A DNA stretch of 64,000 nt from a bacterium (lineage in GTDB: Bacteria; BMS3Abin14). The notes under the pieces are model-generated. The model saw only the letters and a program-made list of their open reading frames with translations. It did not search any database and had not been told where the DNA came from. The stretch is from contig CP070719.1 of NCBI GenBank assembly GCA_020350725.1, positions 1,809,162 through 1,873,161 on the forward strand, in the 5' to 3' direction. The position numbers and the translations under genes are program-made. This document shows, one piece after another, positions 53,780-64,000 of the stretch. Each line of letters starts with the position of its first letter. Position 1 is the stretch's first letter.

Positions 53780-54080
53780 GGCCCTGCGGACGTGATAACC
53801 AGTTCACGGTTCACTGTTTAGGGTGGAAATAAGAGCATTAGAGCATTAGAAATTAGAGATTAGAGATCGATCCAAGATCCAAAAAGGTAGTTCACGGTTC
53901 ACAGTTCACAGCTGGAAAGCAGACCATTAGAGATTAGAGCATTAGACATTATTGCCAAAATCCGAAACTAGGGACATCTCTGTGGCACTCTGTGGCGGCG
54001 TCTCAAGGGACGCCTCCGTGTCCTCTGTGTTAAATTCCTTCCTCCTGAATTCTGGCTCCTGACTCCTTTTCAAAGGCACG

Positions 54081-54243
54081 TTCCACGTTCCGGATACTAA
54101 CTGTGAACTGAGAGCTGAGTCCCAAGGACTCAGTGATATGTGGTCAGTAACACCTCACTATACTTATCTCTTAGCACTATATATCCCTCTCCCATGCGCC
54201 CCCTCTGGACGCTGGCCTCTGGACTCTGGACTCTTTTCTCCCC
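54081..54243 (+). repeat. Left arm of a 163-bp inverted repeat
   Basis: Matches the reverse complement of 56578-56740 at 160 of 163 positions (by-eye comparison). It includes a perfect hairpin, CTGAGTCC-CAA-GGACTCAG (54114-54132). Confidence 0.85.
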
Positions 54244-54315
54244 CTCACCCATGCGCCCCCTCTGGACGCTGGCCTCTGGGCTCTGGACTCATTTCTCCCC
54301 CTCACCCATGCGCCC
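54191..54315 (+). repeat. 57-bp tandem repeat, about 2.2 copies
   Basis: Copies begin at 54191 and 54248 (CCCATGCGCC...), with a partial third at 54305. The unit itself contains TCTGGAC-GCTGGCC-TCTGGAC-TCTGGAC in 7-bp phase. A further partial unit at 54477-54515 overlaps the stop of the dciA-like gene. Confidence 0.85.
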
Positions 54316-54505
54316 CCGCGCCGGAAGATTGAGGTTCCATGCTGTCTGGTAAGTATCGGTGTAACGAGGTATGGAGGTGTCGAGGAATTCAATCTCAGGT
54401 TCCTTCTTTGTTGTTCTTAAAACCTCGATACTTCGCTACCTCCATACTTCGGTACGCATTACCTTTAATTCGTTCCCTCTGGACGCTGGCCTCTGGACCC
54501 TGGAC

Positions 54506-54838
54506 TCATTTTTCCTCTGTCCCCCGACCCCTCATGAGGGTGAACCGGATATCGGTCACGACCCCTTTCCCGGCGAGATCGTCCAGCTTCTTGATGATCT
54601 CGTTCTTTCTCATGGACAATTCATTCATCCAGGAGGGATCACTGACTTCAACGATCATCGACTTGCCTCGGAATCGGACCGGCCTCGCGTGGCCGGACGC
54701 GTCCCCGGCGATCTGATCCCAGGCGATCATGATCATCCCCTGCCGGGCAGTATCTTCGGGAAGGCCGAGGTTGCGGAGAACCGAGCCGATGACCTGGCCC
54801 ACGGCCGTGGGTTCTCTCTTTATTCTGCGATCTCTCAT
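54506..54838 (-). CDS. DciA-like DUF721 protein
   Basis: 110 residues from ATG 54838. The DUF721 pattern is visible: KREPTAVGQVIGSVLRNLGLPE, IMIAWDQIAGDASGHARPVRFRGKSMIVEVSDPSWMNELSMRKNEIIKKL. DciA proteins help load the replicative helicase DnaB in bacteria lacking DnaC/DnaI. No good ribosome site stands before 54838; the frame is open up to 54895. The stop codon sits in a copy of the local repeat, so the native 3' end may have been replaced. Lies inside the 163-bp inverted-repeat pair. Confidence 0.75.
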   Translation of the reverse strand: MRDRRIKREPTAVGQVIGSVLRNLGLPEDTARQGMIMIAWDQIAGDASGHARPVRFRGKSMIVEVSDPSWMNELSMRKNEIIKKLDDLAGKGVVTDIRFTLMRGRGTEEK

Positions 54839-54919
54839 CAGGACGAAATTAATCTCCGGCTGAGGTAAATTCCTTGACAGTAAAAGGGAAATCACCTAAC
54901 TTAATATTAAGAATACTGT

Positions 54920-54935
54920 ATTTTGTATACAAAAT
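54920..54935. promoter_or_regulatory. Perfect 16-bp palindrome, likely GntR/FadR operator
   Basis: ATTTTGTATACAAAAT is a perfect palindrome with the TTGTATACAA core typical of FCD-type GntR operators. It lies 44 bp before the first GntR start, in the divergent region with the dciA-like gene. Confidence 0.7.
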
Positions 54936-54978
54936 TTCCCTCCCCCATCAGAGTCTGGATTATAACAGGATAGTGAGA

Positions 54979-55653
54979 TTGAAAAAGCACAAAACCCTCA
55001 GGGAGCAGATAGCCTCCTCACTTAGGGAGTCCATCATCCAGGGTGAACTGCCGCCGGGCCAGAAGCTCACGGAGCCGGAACTGGCAGAGCGGCTCGGGAT
55101 CAGCCGGACGCCTATCAGGGAAGCCTTTCGGCAGCTGGAGAGCGAGGGGTTCCTGACCGTCATTCCGAGGCGCGGCGCGGTCGTGTCCACCATTACCGTC
55201 AAAGAGATCAAGGACTTCTACGAACTGAAGAGCCTCCTGGAGGGATATGCCGCCAGGGTCGCTGCGGAGAGGATAAACCTGAAGGACATTGAGAAACTGG
55301 AAAAGATCAACAACCAACTGGAAGACCTTGCCGAGAGGGGCCACGTGGAAGGATTTTTCCGCAAGAACGAGGAGTTCCATAACTGCTTTCTCCAGCTGTG
55401 CGGAAACGAGAAGCTGATGGAACTAAGGAACACGATGGTCAAAAGGTTCCTCGGTTTCAGGATGGCGACCCTGTCGCTGCCCGGAAGGCTCATGGAGTCC
55501 GTACGTCAGCATCGATCCATCATCAAGGCCTTCCAGAAGAGAGACGGACGTCTGGCGGAGGCCATCGTCGTGGAGCACGCCCTTCTGGGCGGTGAGGAGC
55601 TGGCCAATCAGGTCCGAAAGCTTCAAGAGGAGGCTGGTCTGAAAATGGGATAG
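54979..55653 (+). CDS. GntR/FadR-type regulator (FCD domain), first of two
   Basis: 224 residues from TTG 54979, with AGGA eight bases upstream. Winged HTH (TLREQIASSLRESIIQGELPPGQKLTEPELAERLGISRTPIREAFRQLESEGFL), then an all-helical FCD ligand domain with the metal-type pattern (EEFHNCFLQL, QHRSIIKAF, EHALLGG). Such regulators sense small carboxylates. The palindrome upstream suggests autoregulation. The next gene is a closely related regulator. Confidence 0.88.
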   Translation: MKKHKTLREQIASSLRESIIQGELPPGQKLTEPELAERLGISRTPIREAFRQLESEGFLTVIPRRGAVVSTITVKEIKDFYELKSLLEGYAARVAAERINLKDIEKLEKINNQLEDLAERGHVEGFFRKNEEFHNCFLQLCGNEKLMELRNTMVKRFLGFRMATLSLPGRLMESVRQHRSIIKAFQKRDGRLAEAIVVEHALLGGEELANQVRKLQEEAGLKMG

Positions 55654-55750
55654 GGGGGAGCCCGCCCGGTTGCCCTTTCCGAAAAACGGAGGGAAGCACC
55701 GGAGCCGGGCAGGATCCCGTGTAGTCAGACAACAGACGGCAGGTGATCTC

Positions 55751-56437
55751 ATGATAAAGGATTTCAAGATCAAGATCGAGGAGCCGAAGCTTCTCTCCGA
55801 GGATATCGCGGATTCCATCAAGAGGGCCATCATCAAGGGGAAATTCAAGCCGGGTGAAAAGATCTCCGAGGGGGAGCTTGCCGAATCCATGGGTATCAGC
55901 CGGACGCCCCTGAGGGAGGCATTCAGAAAACTGGAGAACGAGGGCTTCATCGAGATCATCCCGAGAAAGGGCGCTGTGGTCACGGAGATCGATGCCAAGG
56001 AGGCCTATGACCTGTACCAGATCAAGAGCGCCCTTGAGGGGTTGGCCGCCAGACTCGCCGTCGGCAAGGTCAAGGAGAAGGACATCGAAAAACTGAAGAA
56101 GATCAACGCTGAGCTGAGTGAGACTATTGAGGAATACGATCTGGAATCCTTTTACAGAACCCACTGCCGCTTCCACGAGGTCTTTGTCAAGATTTCCGGA
56201 AATAATCGGCTGATCCACCTGATCTCCAATCTCAACGATCATTTCCAGCGCTACGGCATCGCCTCTCTGGCCCTGCCCGGCCAGTATGAGAACACGATCA
56301 GGCAGCATGAGGAGATCATCGATGCCTTCCAGAGGGGAGACGAACGGAACGTCGAGGAGAAGGTCCGGGAAAATGTCCTGACGGGCGGGAGTGTCCTCAT
56401 CGACCACCTGGCCAGGACCGCCCCTTCCCCCAAGTAA
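55751..56437 (+). CDS. GntR/FadR-type regulator (FCD domain), second of two
   Basis: 228 residues from ATG 55751 (AGGTGA upstream). HTH SEDIADSIKRAIIKGKFKPGEKISEGELAESMGISRTPLREAFRKLENEGF and an FCD domain (HCRFHEVFVKI, RQHEEIIDAFQRGD). Similar in plan and sequence to the preceding regulator, so probably a tandem duplication. Lies before the formate dehydrogenase-like genes, but also inside the inverted-repeat pair. The ligand is unknown. Confidence 0.88.
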   Translation: MIKDFKIKIEEPKLLSEDIADSIKRAIIKGKFKPGEKISEGELAESMGISRTPLREAFRKLENEGFIEIIPRKGAVVTEIDAKEAYDLYQIKSALEGLAARLAVGKVKEKDIEKLKKINAELSETIEEYDLESFYRTHCRFHEVFVKISGNNRLIHLISNLNDHFQRYGIASLALPGQYENTIRQHEEIIDAFQRGDERNVEEKVRENVLTGGSVLIDHLARTAPSPK

Positions 56438-56577
56438 CAACCTGCCTGCCGTCCAGGCGCTGCAAAGAGACCGGTCAATATCCCCTATATTCCGCAGGTT
56501 GATTCCATCGGATTTCTCTGACATTATCTGCCGGCATGTTCCGCCCGGGAAAAGGTGTGGAGCGGTAAAACCGACGC

Positions 56578-56740
56578 GGGGAGAAAAGAGTCCAGAGTCC
56601 AGAGGCCAGCGTCCAGATGGGGCGCATGGGAGAGGGATATAAAGTGCTAAGAGATAAGTATAGTGAGGTGTTACTGACCACATATCACTGAGTCCTTGGG
56701 ACTCAGCTCTCAGTTCACAGTTAGTATCTGGAACGTGGAA
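56578..56740 (-). repeat. Right arm of a 163-bp inverted repeat
   Basis: Reverse complement of 54081-54243 with three mismatches by eye. Between the arms lie the dciA-like gene and both GntR genes (2,334 bp). Confidence 0.85.
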
Positions 56741-56786
56741 CATCAGACACGGGACTTGGATATAAGAGGCAGCGAGAAAAAGCGGT

Positions 56787-56822
56787 CGTCATTGCGAACC
56801 GATGCCTGCGTGAAGCAATCTT
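56787..56822. repeat. GTCATTGCGA...GCAATC dispersed repeat-like element
   Basis: Starts CGTCATTGCGA and ends GAAGCAATC, with ATTGC/GCAAT as inverted ends. Elements beginning GTCATTGCGA and ending GCAATC are, from memory, a widespread class of intergenic repeat in diverse bacteria. Only one copy is seen in this window. Confidence 0.5.
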
Positions 56823-56824
56823 TA

Positions 56825-56930
56825 GCTGTGAACAGTGAACCGTGAACTGTGAACTATCTTTTTGGATCTTGGACTTTGGATTTTGGATTCGTTTCCAAAT
56901 CACTAATTACCAATCACAAATCACGACGGT
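56825..56930. repeat. Heptad repeat tracts
   Basis: GTGAACA-GTGAACC-GTGAACT-GTGAACT, then GGATCTT-GGACTTT-GGATTTT-GGATTCG, then AAATCAC-TAATTAC-CAATCAC-AAATCAC. Confidence 0.85.
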
Positions 56931-56976
56931 TTTCAACGGTGAACTATTTTATCCATAGGTTATCCGGGGGTCACAT

Positions 56977-59799
56977 TTGAAGAGTGTCCGGATCAGCAGG
57001 AGGTCCTTTTTCAAGGCAGGCGCCGGGCTGCTGGTGAGCCTTCTGGGCCCTTCCGGCGGCGGTCCCCTTTTTGCCGGTGTCAAGCCGTCGCCGATCTTCG
57101 GAAGGGAGATCCCCAGCCGATGCCCCCTCTGCGCCATGGGCTGCGGAGTGATCTATCTGAAGCGAACGGACGGGAGGTGGTCCGTTGAGGGGGATCCGGA
57201 CTGTCCCGTGGCCGGCGGCAGTCTGTGTGCCCGGGGGACGTCCCTTTTGGCGGTGTCCGATCTGGCTGCGTCGGCAAAACCCCTTGTCAGGAACCCCGGC
57301 AGTTCCCAATGGGAGGAGCTGCCCTGGTCCGAAGCCGTCGACAGGGTCGCCAGGCGGATCAAGGACTTCAGGGACAGGGAGTTAAGGGGAGTAGGTAACG
57401 ATTCACCCCATAGCAACCGCTTCGAGGGTATGGGGATCATCAGTGGCGGCCATATCGCCAATGAGGAGGCCTACCTCGCGGCTAAGCTCTTCCGATCCCT
57501 CGGGATCGTGCAGATGGACACCACTGTCAGGGCAGGCCGCGGCATGGCGGTCCTCGGTCTTCTAGAGGTTCTCGGCCTGCCTGGCCCAACCCATCCGCCT
57601 GTTCAAGTAGCCGACAGCGACGTGGTGTTCCTGGTGGGGTGTAATCCGGGTCAGACCTCCCCTGTTCTGTCCAGGGCCCTGGACAACGTGCGCCGAAGGC
57701 ATGGAGTGGTCATCGTCCTGGACCCCAGGATGACCGAGTCGGTCAAGGAGGGGGACATCTGGCTGAACGTGAGACCTGGCTGCGATGCCGCCGTCCTGGG
57801 AGGACTGCTGCACTGGGTCCTGGAGAATGTCTCGCCGAGAAAGGAGGAACTGACACAGAACACGGACGCCGCCTTCATGACGCTGACTGAAACCCTGGGA
57901 CAGTACGAACGGCATACAGGTAAAAGGGCCGAGGAAGGTTTCGTCACGGATCCCTCTCTGGAGGAGCCCTACTCGATCTTTCAGCGGCTCAAAAGACACT
58001 ACGAGCGCTACGATCTTCGAAAGGTCTCCGATATTGCCGGTGTGGATGAGACACTCCTCCGCAGGGCCGCCCGGCTGCTCGCCAGGACCGGCGAGCAGGA
58101 GTTCTCGGCCTGTTTCGTTCTCGGTGCCGGGGCTCTCGGCAGGCCATCGGGGCCTGACAGCGCCCGAATGGCGGCCATGATCCAGGCTCTGCTCGGAAAC
58201 CTCAAGAAGCGCGGCGGCGGAATCGTGATCGCGGCAGGTGCCGGAAATGCTCAGGGCGTCTGTGACATGGGTCTGTTGTCGCCCTTCCTCCCCGGCTACC
58301 TGGCCCTTCCCCGGCATGGCGAGGGCGTCGGAGGGGAACCGCATGTCTCAAAGGACATGGGGGCGCTCCATGCTCTGCTGAGAGCATGGTTTGACGGGAC
58401 GGGCCCCTCCGAGACGGTGGGATATCTGCCGGTCCTCGATGAGGGTGAGACACCTTTGATCAACACCATCCTCCAGGGAATTGGAGAGGAGAAGGTCCGC
58501 TCGCTCGTCCTCATCGGCGCCGATCCCGTAATGAGTATTCCGGGCAGCGGAGAGATCAGGGAGAACCTGTCAAATCTCGATCTCCTCGTCGTCCTGGATG
58601 TTCTGCCCAGTAAGACCTGCGAATTCTGGATGTCCGCCTCCGTGGACCTCTCCTCCGTCAAGACGGAGGTTATCTATCTGCCCATTCAGGCTCCCGCACA
58701 GAGAGGCGGAACCATGACCGATGGGGGGCGCCGTGTCAGGCCTCTTTACCCGGTAGAGGGGGGGAGCGGCGCGGCCCGGTCGCTTTTGGGGATCCTTGTC
58801 GAACTGGGAGTCCACCTGAAAGAGGCCTATCGCAGAGAGGGAGGCTCCGTAGACGCCCCCGTCATGGCCCTCAGATGGCCCTTGAAGTCCGATTACCGCC
58901 AGATAGCCGAGGAGATCAACGGCGTCCTCTTTCGAAACGATGACAGGGAGCTGCTCTCGCCGGAGCACCCTTGGGAGGGTGAGGTCCTCTGCGGTAATCG
59001 ACTCTACAGGGGATGGTTGTCGGAGGCGGGCTGGCAGGTCGAACGGAGAGGTGTCTCGGACAGGAACCGGATCGGTCTGTTCGAGGAATGGGGTTGGTTC
59101 TGGCCGGGGGGGATCCCGGATCCCTTTTCCTGGATTTTCGACAGGACACATGAAGCGACGGTTCTGCTCCGATGGGAGGGCCAGGAAGGGATGGTTCGCT
59201 CCGGTGACGTCGCCCTCCCTCTCAGGCGAAACCTGCCGGTGAAATTCTGGAGGGAGTCGCCTCACGGCATCCCCTTTCCAGAACATTACGAGCCCCTCCA
59301 CAGCCCTCTTCCGGATCTTCTGACGGGGGGAAAAGGCAGCCCGGACATCGTCACCCGGTTCAGCGGCGGCGAGCCATGGGACTATCTCTCGCGCCGGCCC
59401 GAGATGACCCTGGAGGATTATCAGGTTATCATGACCGTCCACCGCACCGGGAACATGGCAGGAAGCGGGGGAGTGGTGGCGCAGGTCGATTGGCTGAGAG
59501 AGCTCGGCACGGCAAGGGTCCTGGAGATCGGCGTCGACCTGGCTGCACGCCTGAAGGTGGTCTCAGGCGACACGGTGACCGTCCGTTCACCCCATTTTCG
59601 GGTGGGAGTGACCGCTGCGGTCCTGGTGACCCGGAGAATTGGGAACTATCAATTCAACGGTAGAAGCTTTGCCCTGGCGTCCCTGTCGCTTTACGGAGAG
59701 GGAACACCGTCGACAAACGACCTCCCTCCCCCGGCTTTCAGCTCGTCCGGAGAGGGAATGCAGATAAAAGCCTTCATGGCCAAAGTGGAGAAAGCATAG
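56977..59799 (+). CDS. TAT-exported molybdopterin oxidoreductase, formate-dehydrogenase-like but lacking the metal ligand
   Basis: 940 residues, with a twin-arginine signal (SRRSFFKAG). [4Fe-4S] ligands C49, C52, C56 and C84 and the bis-MGD domains of the formate dehydrogenase/nitrate reductase family are present (FLVGCNPGQTSPVLSRA, ARMAAMIQALLGN, IGADPVMSIPG). At the position of the selenocysteine/cysteine molybdenum ligand it has Gly187, and the neighbouring His is Arg188 (VRAGRG aligned with ARIUHS of the fdnG product below). It may be catalytically altered, NuoG-like, or a partner or structural subunit. TTG 56977. Followed by fdhE after 64 bp. Confidence 0.8.
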   Translation: MKSVRISRRSFFKAGAGLLVSLLGPSGGGPLFAGVKPSPIFGREIPSRCPLCAMGCGVIYLKRTDGRWSVEGDPDCPVAGGSLCARGTSLLAVSDLAASAKPLVRNPGSSQWEELPWSEAVDRVARRIKDFRDRELRGVGNDSPHSNRFEGMGIISGGHIANEEAYLAAKLFRSLGIVQMDTTVRAGRGMAVLGLLEVLGLPGPTHPPVQVADSDVVFLVGCNPGQTSPVLSRALDNVRRRHGVVIVLDPRMTESVKEGDIWLNVRPGCDAAVLGGLLHWVLENVSPRKEELTQNTDAAFMTLTETLGQYERHTGKRAEEGFVTDPSLEEPYSIFQRLKRHYERYDLRKVSDIAGVDETLLRRAARLLARTGEQEFSACFVLGAGALGRPSGPDSARMAAMIQALLGNLKKRGGGIVIAAGAGNAQGVCDMGLLSPFLPGYLALPRHGEGVGGEPHVSKDMGALHALLRAWFDGTGPSETVGYLPVLDEGETPLINTILQGIGEEKVRSLVLIGADPVMSIPGSGEIRENLSNLDLLVVLDVLPSKTCEFWMSASVDLSSVKTEVIYLPIQAPAQRGGTMTDGGRRVRPLYPVEGGSGAARSLLGILVELGVHLKEAYRREGGSVDAPVMALRWPLKSDYRQIAEEINGVLFRNDDRELLSPEHPWEGEVLCGNRLYRGWLSEAGWQVERRGVSDRNRIGLFEEWGWFWPGGIPDPFSWIFDRTHEATVLLRWEGQEGMVRSGDVALPLRRNLPVKFWRESPHGIPFPEHYEPLHSPLPDLLTGGKGSPDIVTRFSGGEPWDYLSRRPEMTLEDYQVIMTVHRTGNMAGSGGVVAQVDWLRELGTARVLEIGVDLAARLKVVSGDTVTVRSPHFRVGVTAAVLVTRRIGNYQFNGRSFALASLSLYGEGTPSTNDLPPPAFSSSGEGMQIKAFMAKVEKA

Positions 59800-61221: not shown

Positions 61222-64000
61222 ATGAACGTAACCAGGAGAGATTTTCTGAAGATCTCCGGCGTCACCGTTTCAGGAGCGGCGATTGGCGGTCTTGGTCTCC
61301 GTGGTACGGCGATGGCTGGTGCCCGGCAGGGTAACACAGCCGTCAAGTACGCAAAGGAGTCAACCACCATCTGCCCGTTCTGCGCGGTGGGATGCGGCAT
61401 CATCGTCCATGCTCACGGCGGCAAAGTGGTGAACATGGAGGGTGACCCCGATCATCCCATCAACGAGGGAACGCTCTGCTCGAAAGCCCAGGCTCTCCGG
61501 CAGGTCTCTGAAAACCCCTACCGGATCACCAAACCCCTCTACCGCGCGCCCCGAAGCAGTGAGTGGAAGGAGGTCACTTGGGATTGGGCCTACAGTGAGA
61601 TCGCCAAACGGGTCAAGAAGAGCCGTGATGCCGGTTTCACCAAGGTCAACTCGAAGGGACAGGTCGTCAACCGGAACGACGGGATCGCCCACGTCGGTTC
61701 GGCGGCCCTTGACAATGAGGAGTGCTACCTCCTCCAGAAATGGCTTCGCGCCCTCGGCCTGGTGTACATCGAGCACCAGGCGCGGATATGACACAGCGCC
61801 ACCGTAGCGGCTCTGGCAGAGTCGTTTGGAAGAGGCGCGATGACCAACCACTGGATCGACATCCGCAATTCGGACGTCATCCTCATCAGCGGATCCAACG
61901 CCGCTGAGAACCACCCCATCTCATTCAAGTGGGTGACCAAGGCCATGGAGAACGGGGCCAAGCTGATCAGCGTGGACCCCAGGTTCACCCGAACCTCCTC
62001 CAGGGCCGACATATTTGCCGCCATTCGGTCCGGTACGGACATCGCGTGGCTGGGCGGTATGATCAAGTACATCCTCGACAACGAGCTTTATCACAAGGAC
62101 TACGTCAGGCTGTACACCAATGCCCCGTTCATCCTGAACAGCGGCTTCAAGATGCCGGGTGATCTGGACGGCTTGTTCTCGGGGTACGACCCGAAGAAGA
62201 GGAGCTACGACAGGAGCACCTGGGCCTATGCCAAGGACGCCAACGGCGTGATCAGGAAGGATCCTAGCATGAAGGATCCCATGTGCGTCCTCCAGCTCCT
62301 GAAGAAGCACTTTTCCAGGTACACCCTGGACAAGGTGTCGACCATTTGCGGTACCCCCAAGGACAAGCTCCTCGAGGTCTACAAGGCCTACGCTACCACC
62401 GGCAAAGCGGACCGGACCGGTACCATCATGTACGCCATGGGCTGGACCCAGCACACGGTGGGGACCCAGAACATCAGGACCATGGCCATTATCCAGCTCC
62501 TGCTGGGCAACATCGGCATGGCCGGGGGCGGCGTCAACGCCCTGCGGGGGGAATCCAACGTCCAGGGGTCCACGGACCACTGCCTGCTGTTCCACATCCT
62601 GCCCGGATACCTCGGCACCCCTTCGGCTTCCCTGTCCAGCCTGGACAAGTACCTTGAGGCCAAGACGCCCACGACCAAGGAGCCCTATTCGGCGAACTGG
62701 TGGCAGAACTATCCCAAGTACATGGCGAGCCTGCTGCGGGCGCACTTCGGCCAGAGCGCCGACCTCGCCACCCAGTACAACTGGATGCCCAAGCTGGATG
62801 ACGGACAGAACGCGTCCTGGCTCATGCTGTTCGACGAGATGTTCAACGGCAAGTTCACCGGATTCTTCGCCTGGGGCCAGAACCCGGCCTGCTCGGGGTC
62901 CAATGCCGGCAAGGTCCGGGAGGCCCTCAAGAAACTGGACTGGATGGTCAACGTCAACCTGTTCGACAACGAGACCGGTTCCTTCTGGCGCGGTCCCGAG
63001 ATGAACCCGGCCGAGATCAAGACGGAGGTGTTCTTCCTCCCCTGCGCCATGTCCTTCGAAAAGGAGGGGAGCATCACCAATTCCGGGCGATGGGCCCAGT
63101 GGCGCTATACAGCCGTCAAACCGCCGGCCCCCACCGATGCAGACATCATCAACGAGCTCCAGTTCAAGGTCAGAAAGCTCTATGAGGAGCAGGGCGGCGT
63201 GTACCCCGATCCCATCCTGAACCTGGCATGGGATTACGGTGCCAAGGGTCCGGACGGCAAGGTCAGGCACATGGACACCCACCTGGTCGCCAAGGAGATC
63301 AACGGGTACTTCCTGGAGGACAAGGAGATCAGGGGCACCCTCTACAAGAAGGGTGACCTGGTTCCGTCCTTCGCCTTCCTCCAGGACGACGGATCCACCT
63401 CGTCGGGCAACTGGCTGTACTGCCAGTCCTACAACGCCTCCGGCAACAACATGGCAAGACGAAGCAAATCGGATCCCACAGGCACCGGCCTCTACAACGG
63501 CTGGTCCTGGTGCTGGCCCGTCAACAGGCGGATCATCTACAACCGGGCCAGTGTCGACGAGTACGGCAAGCCCTGGGCGCCCCACAAGCCGGTCATCTAC
63601 TGGAGCGGCAAATCGTGGGTGGGTGACGTTCCCGACGGCGGATGGCCGCCGCTCAGGAAGCCAGACGGCACCTGGAACGAGGCGACGAAGCTGGCCTACA
63701 TCATGAAACCGGTGGGTGTGGCCCACATCTTCGGTCCCGGCCGGGCTGAGGGTCCCTTCCCCGAGCACTACGAGCCTCTGGAGTGCCCCATTGAGAAGAA
63801 CCTCATGAATCCCCAGAGGATCAACCCGGTCGCCAAACTCTTCACGGGCAAGATGGATCAGTTCCTCACCTGTGACGACCGCTATCCCCTGGTGGCCACC
63901 ACCTACAGGGTCACTGAGCACTGGCAGACCGGGGTCCTGACCAGGTGGCTTCCCTGGCAGGCCGAGATGATGCCCGCCAACTTCGTGGAGCTGAGCGAAG
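61222..64000 (+). CDS. fdnG: Selenocysteine formate dehydrogenase alpha subunit FdnG/FdoG (3' end outside window)
   Basis: Open reading across an in-frame TGA at codon 190 (61789-61791), with 736 further sense codons to the window edge. TAT signal RRDFLKISG, [4Fe-4S] ligands in CPFCAVGCG and the later LCSKA, and ARI-U-HSATVA, the active-site pattern of FDH-N (RVUHGPTVA). The catalytic His and the family text NHWIDIRNSDVILISGSNAAENHP and FAWGQNPACSG continue after TGA. A bSECIS-like hairpin follows. It oxidises formate in the periplasm and passes electrons to beta/gamma subunits expected beyond the window. ATG 61222 with GGTGAGG upstream. Confidence 0.95.
61789..61838 (+). other. Selenocysteine codon and bSECIS-like hairpin
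   Basis: TGA (61789-61791) followed by an outer stem GCGCC/GGCGC (61796-61800, 61834-61838) and an inner stem GGCTCT/AGAGTC (61809-61814, 61818-61823) with a GGC loop. This corresponds in place to the SelB-binding hairpin of fdnG/fdhF mRNAs. Confidence 0.7.

Follow-up and report, generated by a model that had tools for sequence, protein, structure and literature searches.

The near-identical inverted repeat around dciA and two gntR genes is most probably formed by two members of a dispersed, non-coding intergenic repeat family, each of them the head of a polar mosaic island, which together bracket an old gene block; we assign this reading a probability of roughly 0.8. The DNA analyzed here, referred to as the window, is a stretch of 64,000 nucleotides. 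For this reading, the dispersal of the family, its intergenic location, the polarity and order of the islands, the synteny and orientation of the genes in relatives, and the rare variants common to both arms are matters of observation. Accordingly read, the repeat unit would be the head of a larger island of mostly 7-bp-periodic modules in a set order, and the islands would sit between genes, their head often behind a stop codon. The islands of dciA and gntR2 would stand head to head and hence look like an inverted repeat around a conserved block, whose genes would be bystanders. One arm would recently have been copied onto or into the site of the other. The family as a whole would have been copied around in the lineage, and local gene conversion over short tracts would have kept certain neighbours similar. 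A false lead is thereby removed, since signs of a switch or of gene cargo are absent from the dciA-gntR locus. The finding that stands is a repeat system with modules that run in one order and one direction over many intergenic regions, and the grammar of these islands is more interesting than the inverted pair as it was first posed.

The inverted pair

Read against each other's reverse complement, the two arms agree at 161 of 164 positions (98%), with mismatches at unit positions 13, 100 and 124 (Table 1). A blastn comparison of the two intergenic regions alone, which measure 726 bp on the left and 539 bp on the right, gave an E-value of 3e-80, and chance is therefore ruled out as the source of the likeness. 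The preliminary description had placed a near-identical inverted repeat here and had called it non-coding. Both statements hold, the first with one additional paired base at an end, and the second for both arms under the gene models applied. Two features had escaped notice: on its inner side the left arm is part of a 57-bp tandem repeat, and dispersed repeats outside the arms also match in inverted orientation (53871-53909 with 56835-56873).

Table 1. Coordinates of the repeat features and genes at the dciA-gntR locus (positions in the window)
Feature	Position	Strand	Remarks
Left arm	54080..54243	-	One copy of the 164-bp unit, by identity to the right arm (161/164) and family membership; layout, read on the - strand away from dciA: U1 (TCCAGAG heptamers), G-rich stretch, U3 (TAAGAGA... 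heptamers), U4 (TGGAACG heptamers)
Right arm	56578..56741	+	Second copy of the unit; read on the + strand away from gntR2
57-bp tandem repeat	54185..54317	.	2.3 copies; the outer copy belongs to the left arm
Left mosaic island	53826..54507	-	Read from dciA: U1, U1, U1, U3, U4, M8, M7, then M9/M4/M9 heptamer arrays; ends near the OMP2 stop
Right mosaic island	56588..56932	+	U1-U3-U4-M2-M3-M4-M5-M6; ends ~45 bp before fdhA
dciA (PF05258)	54506..54895	-	3' end towards the left island
gntR1, GntR/FCD regulator	54973..55653	+	Start codon picked by eye
gntR2, GntR/FCD regulator	55751..56437	+	3' end towards the right island
fdhA-like molybdopterin oxidoreductase	56977..59799	+	Right-hand syntenic anchor

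A dispersed intergenic family

A search of the genome, a single contig of 2,777,163 bp, found the 164-bp unit in 66 whole or partial matches. It thus lies at many unrelated sites, one of two findings that the preliminary description had together named as telling against a special role of the pair. Leaving the arms aside, copies of more than about 80 bp match the unit at 69-89% identity. Thirty-three copies with the central U3 module could be aligned, and all of them are intergenic except one that overlaps a low-scoring open reading frame, as judged by a home-made, uncalibrated gene caller based on codon usage. Many sites carry the unit as a single copy or as direct copies, and the outer contexts of both arms recur at other places in the genome. 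Among the genomes searched, the full unit was found only in this one. The wider class covered by the search is a single bacterial family, and in its other genomes only the part made of TCCAGAG heptamers (approximately unit positions 111-164) matches. An exact search of viral contigs with a 35-base piece of the repeat family consensus gave 0 matches.

The unit has a 7-bp periodicity, with a self-match of 0.47 at lag 7 against an expectation of about 0.25 (z 6.3), and the two whole intergenic regions at this locus are likewise periodic (z 9.4 and 6.9). Several different heptamer arrays and non-tandem stretches are found inside the 164 bp.

Polar mosaic islands

The arms belong to longer islands, for which we defined 14 recurrent modules by eye from the sequence and then used them for scanning. 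The survey comprised the two islands of Table 1 and the loci L003-L030 and L085-L124; part of this set was chosen for containing the unit, and some of the intergenic islands are partly masked as N. The modules follow the order U1, U2, U3, U4, M2, M3, M7, then M4/M5/M6, then M9. Over 559 kb, made up of an evenly spaced sample and repeat-centred loci, adjacent modules had the same orientation in 386 cases and opposite orientations in 16, a ratio that cannot arise from the choice of the modules' reference strand. A sample of 464 kb, taken as 20 evenly spaced stretches and the window, gave 206 module matches, of which 5 were within genes; two or more modules were present in 23 of the 252 intergenic regions of at least 30 bp. 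The loci of relatives show few of these modules.

With respect to the neighbouring genes, the heads have a modest preference for 3' ends. Between co-directional genes the U1 head is directed towards a gene 3' end in 23 cases and towards a 5' end in 9 (two-sided p 0.02), and several heads are located 20-50 bp from a stop codon. Could the unit then be a 3'-end element, a terminator or an mRNA-stabilising 3' UTR behind genes, with each arm serving dciA or gntR2? The bias and the short distances to stop codons would suit such a role, but the folding energy of the unit is ordinary (z -0.91), no site that resembles an intrinsic terminator was found in the arms, and some copies lie in divergent intergenic regions. 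The scan for promoters and terminators returned nothing above chance, and an Rfam search of the region gave one chance match far below the gathering score, with no family above threshold. We therefore regard a 3'-end function as unlikely.

The mosaic islands themselves account for the bracket. At this locus both heads are directed towards 3' ends, those of dciA and gntR2, and because these 3' ends point outward the two islands are mutually inverted; no role of the enclosed genes is needed to explain the arrangement. Head-to-head pairs are a recurrent form, with heads 0.1 to 2.9 kb apart: among island pairs within 6 kb, 11 are co-directional, 9 are head-to-head and 1 is tail-to-tail.

The left island also contains a palindromic M11 pair (GTAACGAGGTATGGAGG.. 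/ ..CTACCTCCATACTTCGGTAC) at approximately 54361-54455 with a periodicity of ~8 bp, and M11 recurs elsewhere as an inverted pair.

Recent copying between the arms

The preliminary description had proposed recent copying or gene conversion between the arms, and the variants that they have in common support it. Common to both arms are nine variants seldom seen in the repeat family, together with a private 14-bp deletion (two heptamers). Pairwise identity was scored in the central region only (unit positions 20-99) for 527 scorable pairs among the 33 copies that carry U3, with a median of 0.86. Two pairs alone reach 100% in this core: the arms themselves, which are inverted and 2.5 kb apart, and the pair 849280/851309, which is direct and 2.0 kb apart. 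The best pair separated by at least 10 kb reaches 98.8%. Near pairs (<10 kb) make up 17 of the 527, and the chance that both perfect pairs fall among them is about 0.001, the pairs being partly dependent.

At 849280/851309 an identical tract of ~125 bp lies within homologous islands that are about 77% alike overall, a signature such as gene conversion would leave. The common tract of the arms ends abruptly on both sides with no homologous diverged flanks beyond, so that a freshly inserted copy would explain the arms no less well than conversion would. From the identity pattern of neighbouring copies, we infer that the copying step was most likely short-tract gene conversion between neighbours and not a fresh insertion, and that the same process may keep other nearby copies alike. 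Relative to the family majority, the left arm carries one private change and the right arm two; these make up the three differences between the arms and would have accrued since the copying. As the arms have kept these differences they are not being homogenised now, and their last homogenising event appears to have been recent but not current.

The dciA-gntR1-gntR2 block in relatives

Pfam matches confirm the gene identities: DciA (PF05258), both regulators as GntR/FCD proteins, and a molybdopterin oxidoreductase with fdhE behind it. On the right the block is adjoined by the fdhA-like gene, fdhE and one more formate dehydrogenase gene. Protein searches placed gntR1 and gntR2 side by side in 10 other genomes of the bacterial family, with dciA next to the pair in nine, and dciA is opposed to the gntR genes in every family genome that carries it. 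According to tblastn searches with the window proteins, the order in relatives is rimO, methyltransferase, (outer-membrane protein), dciA on the opposite strand, gntR1, gntR2, fdhA, fdhE, fdh. The nine genomes belong to several genera and keep the block beside rimO/methyltransferase and/or fdhA/fdhE, in each case without the arms. In G003, G007 and G009 no more than tens of bp separate the outer-membrane gene from dciA, and the intergenic DNA of relatives at this locus is unrelated to that of the present genome. Given this conserved synteny and orientation, the family inherited the dciA-gntR-gntR block from its common ancestor, and the arms were added afterwards, in the gaps on either side of it.

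These comparisons bear directly on the proposal that the arms form a switch, in which RecA-dependent inversion of the 2.3-kb segment would turn the regulators, and any read-through from gntR into fdh, relative to the formate dehydrogenase genes. A repeat of this length and identity (164 bp, 98%) gives homologous recombination ample substrate, and such an inversion between the arms is physically possible; there is no indication here that it occurs. PMC3004938 describes ectopic inversion between inverted repeats of insertion sequences. No scorable relative has the segment inverted: the upstream anchor (seen in G001, G002, G003, G004, G006, G007 and G009) and the fdh anchor (seen in G002, G003, G004, G005, G006, G008, G009 and G010, that of G006 resting on fdhE and the second fdh gene) have the window's orientation every time, in genomes that are all armless. 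The private differences of the arms argue against present homogenisation, and eight more head-to-head island pairs surround unrelated genes or none, so that the arrangement is not specific to the dciA-gntR block. We consider a switch decidedly improbable.

The further suggestion is that dciA, gntR1 and gntR2 arrived here as the cargo of a non-autonomous mobile element whose terminal inverted repeats are the arms. The two long inverted arms that flank the segment would suit it, but nine other genomes have this block next to the same neighbours and with the same orientation, so the segment was not carried in. The single and direct copies of the unit, the recurrence of the arms' outer contexts and the unrelated GGGGTC-type flanks of the two Y1-type transposase genes also speak against the suggestion, and we dismiss it as highly improbable.

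Other repeats occupy the corresponding gaps of relatives. In G002 the gaps that flank dciA-gntR-gntR share another heptamer family, of GTGAATT type and in both orientations (L079 8569-8968 and 10931-11064), and further 7-bp-periodic arrays are found in the gaps at the same genes in relatives (L076-L084). Several of the relatives' arrays have their own inverted complement tens of bp further on (L082 7474-7595, L084 4318-4446, L079 16612-16774). In the window, the catalytic subunit of formate dehydrogenase at 61222-64000 is interrupted in frame by a TGA (61789-61791) whose context, HQARI-U-HSATVAAL, is selenocysteine-like, and the standard gene call breaks this open reading frame in two.

Comparison with known repeat systems

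The islands resemble BIMEs and other REP composites in that short intergenic modules, almost none of them coding, are joined into islands dispersed over one genome. BIMEs consist of palindromic REPs in alternating orientation, according to PMC2817692, whereas the modules here are mostly heptamer-periodic and run nearly all in one orientation and one order. A Y1/RAYT transposase was considered as the driver and rejected: unlike in BIME/REP systems, the two Y1_Tnp (RAYT) genes of this genome (L095, L096) have flanks without the unit, one flank being partly masked as N. The REP-associated-like Y1-type gene at L096 is bracketed by inverted copies of GGGGTCGCATCTTGCCTTTTAACC.

Intergenic heptanucleotide repeats have been described as GGGAATC in Xanthomonas and GGGGA(C/T)T in Nostoc (PMC4692102), and as TAACTGA in Beggiatoaceae (PMC4679880). 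The present family is like these and the cyanobacterial STRRs in its 7-bp periodicity, intergenic location and many copies. In STRR-like families one heptamer word dominates, whereas here many heptamer arrays and non-tandem modules stand in a fixed order. With a MITE the unit shares a length of ~165-200 bp, its non-coding nature, its dispersal and its recurrent ends (GGGGAG... and ...GGAACGTGGAAC). Unlike those of a MITE, these two ends do not pair as inverted repeats by inspection, and the copies differ by whole heptamers; no target-site duplication was noticed by eye at unit copies. The locus is similar to invertible promoter or gene segments in having a gene segment between inverted repeats, but differs from them in that the armless relatives show no orientation variant and the arms are part of a dispersed family.

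An ordered one-way combination of modules therefore fits neither the heptamer-repeat nor the BIME definition fully. Heptamer repeats are common in some bacteria; polymerase slippage has been proposed as their origin, on which explanations have so far been guesswork (PMC4692102, PMC4679880). Slippage by itself leaves the fixed order and polarity of differing heptamer modules unexplained, so this genome offers a testable case. We tentatively suggest that the islands could be a distinct repeat class of directional mosaics, in which about a dozen mostly heptamer-periodic modules keep one preferred order and orientation, with heads preferentially at gene 3' ends, head-to-head pairs and short-tract copying, which would imply a directional copying process, possibly coupled to transcription or replication.

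Regarding single modules, no relevant paper on the GTCATTGCGAG module and no description of the M3-type pattern as a repeat was found in the literature searched. The M3-type pattern (GTCATTGCGA..GAAGCAATC) is present in the window at 56788-56820 (GTCATTGCGAACCGATGCCTGCGTGAAGCAATC) and also at L097-L104. Its backwards control gave 0 among the matches listed, and in the form GTCATTGCGAN{5,30}GAAGCAATC the pattern matches 64 of 290 genomes from the whole domain, with a maximum of 432 in one genome.
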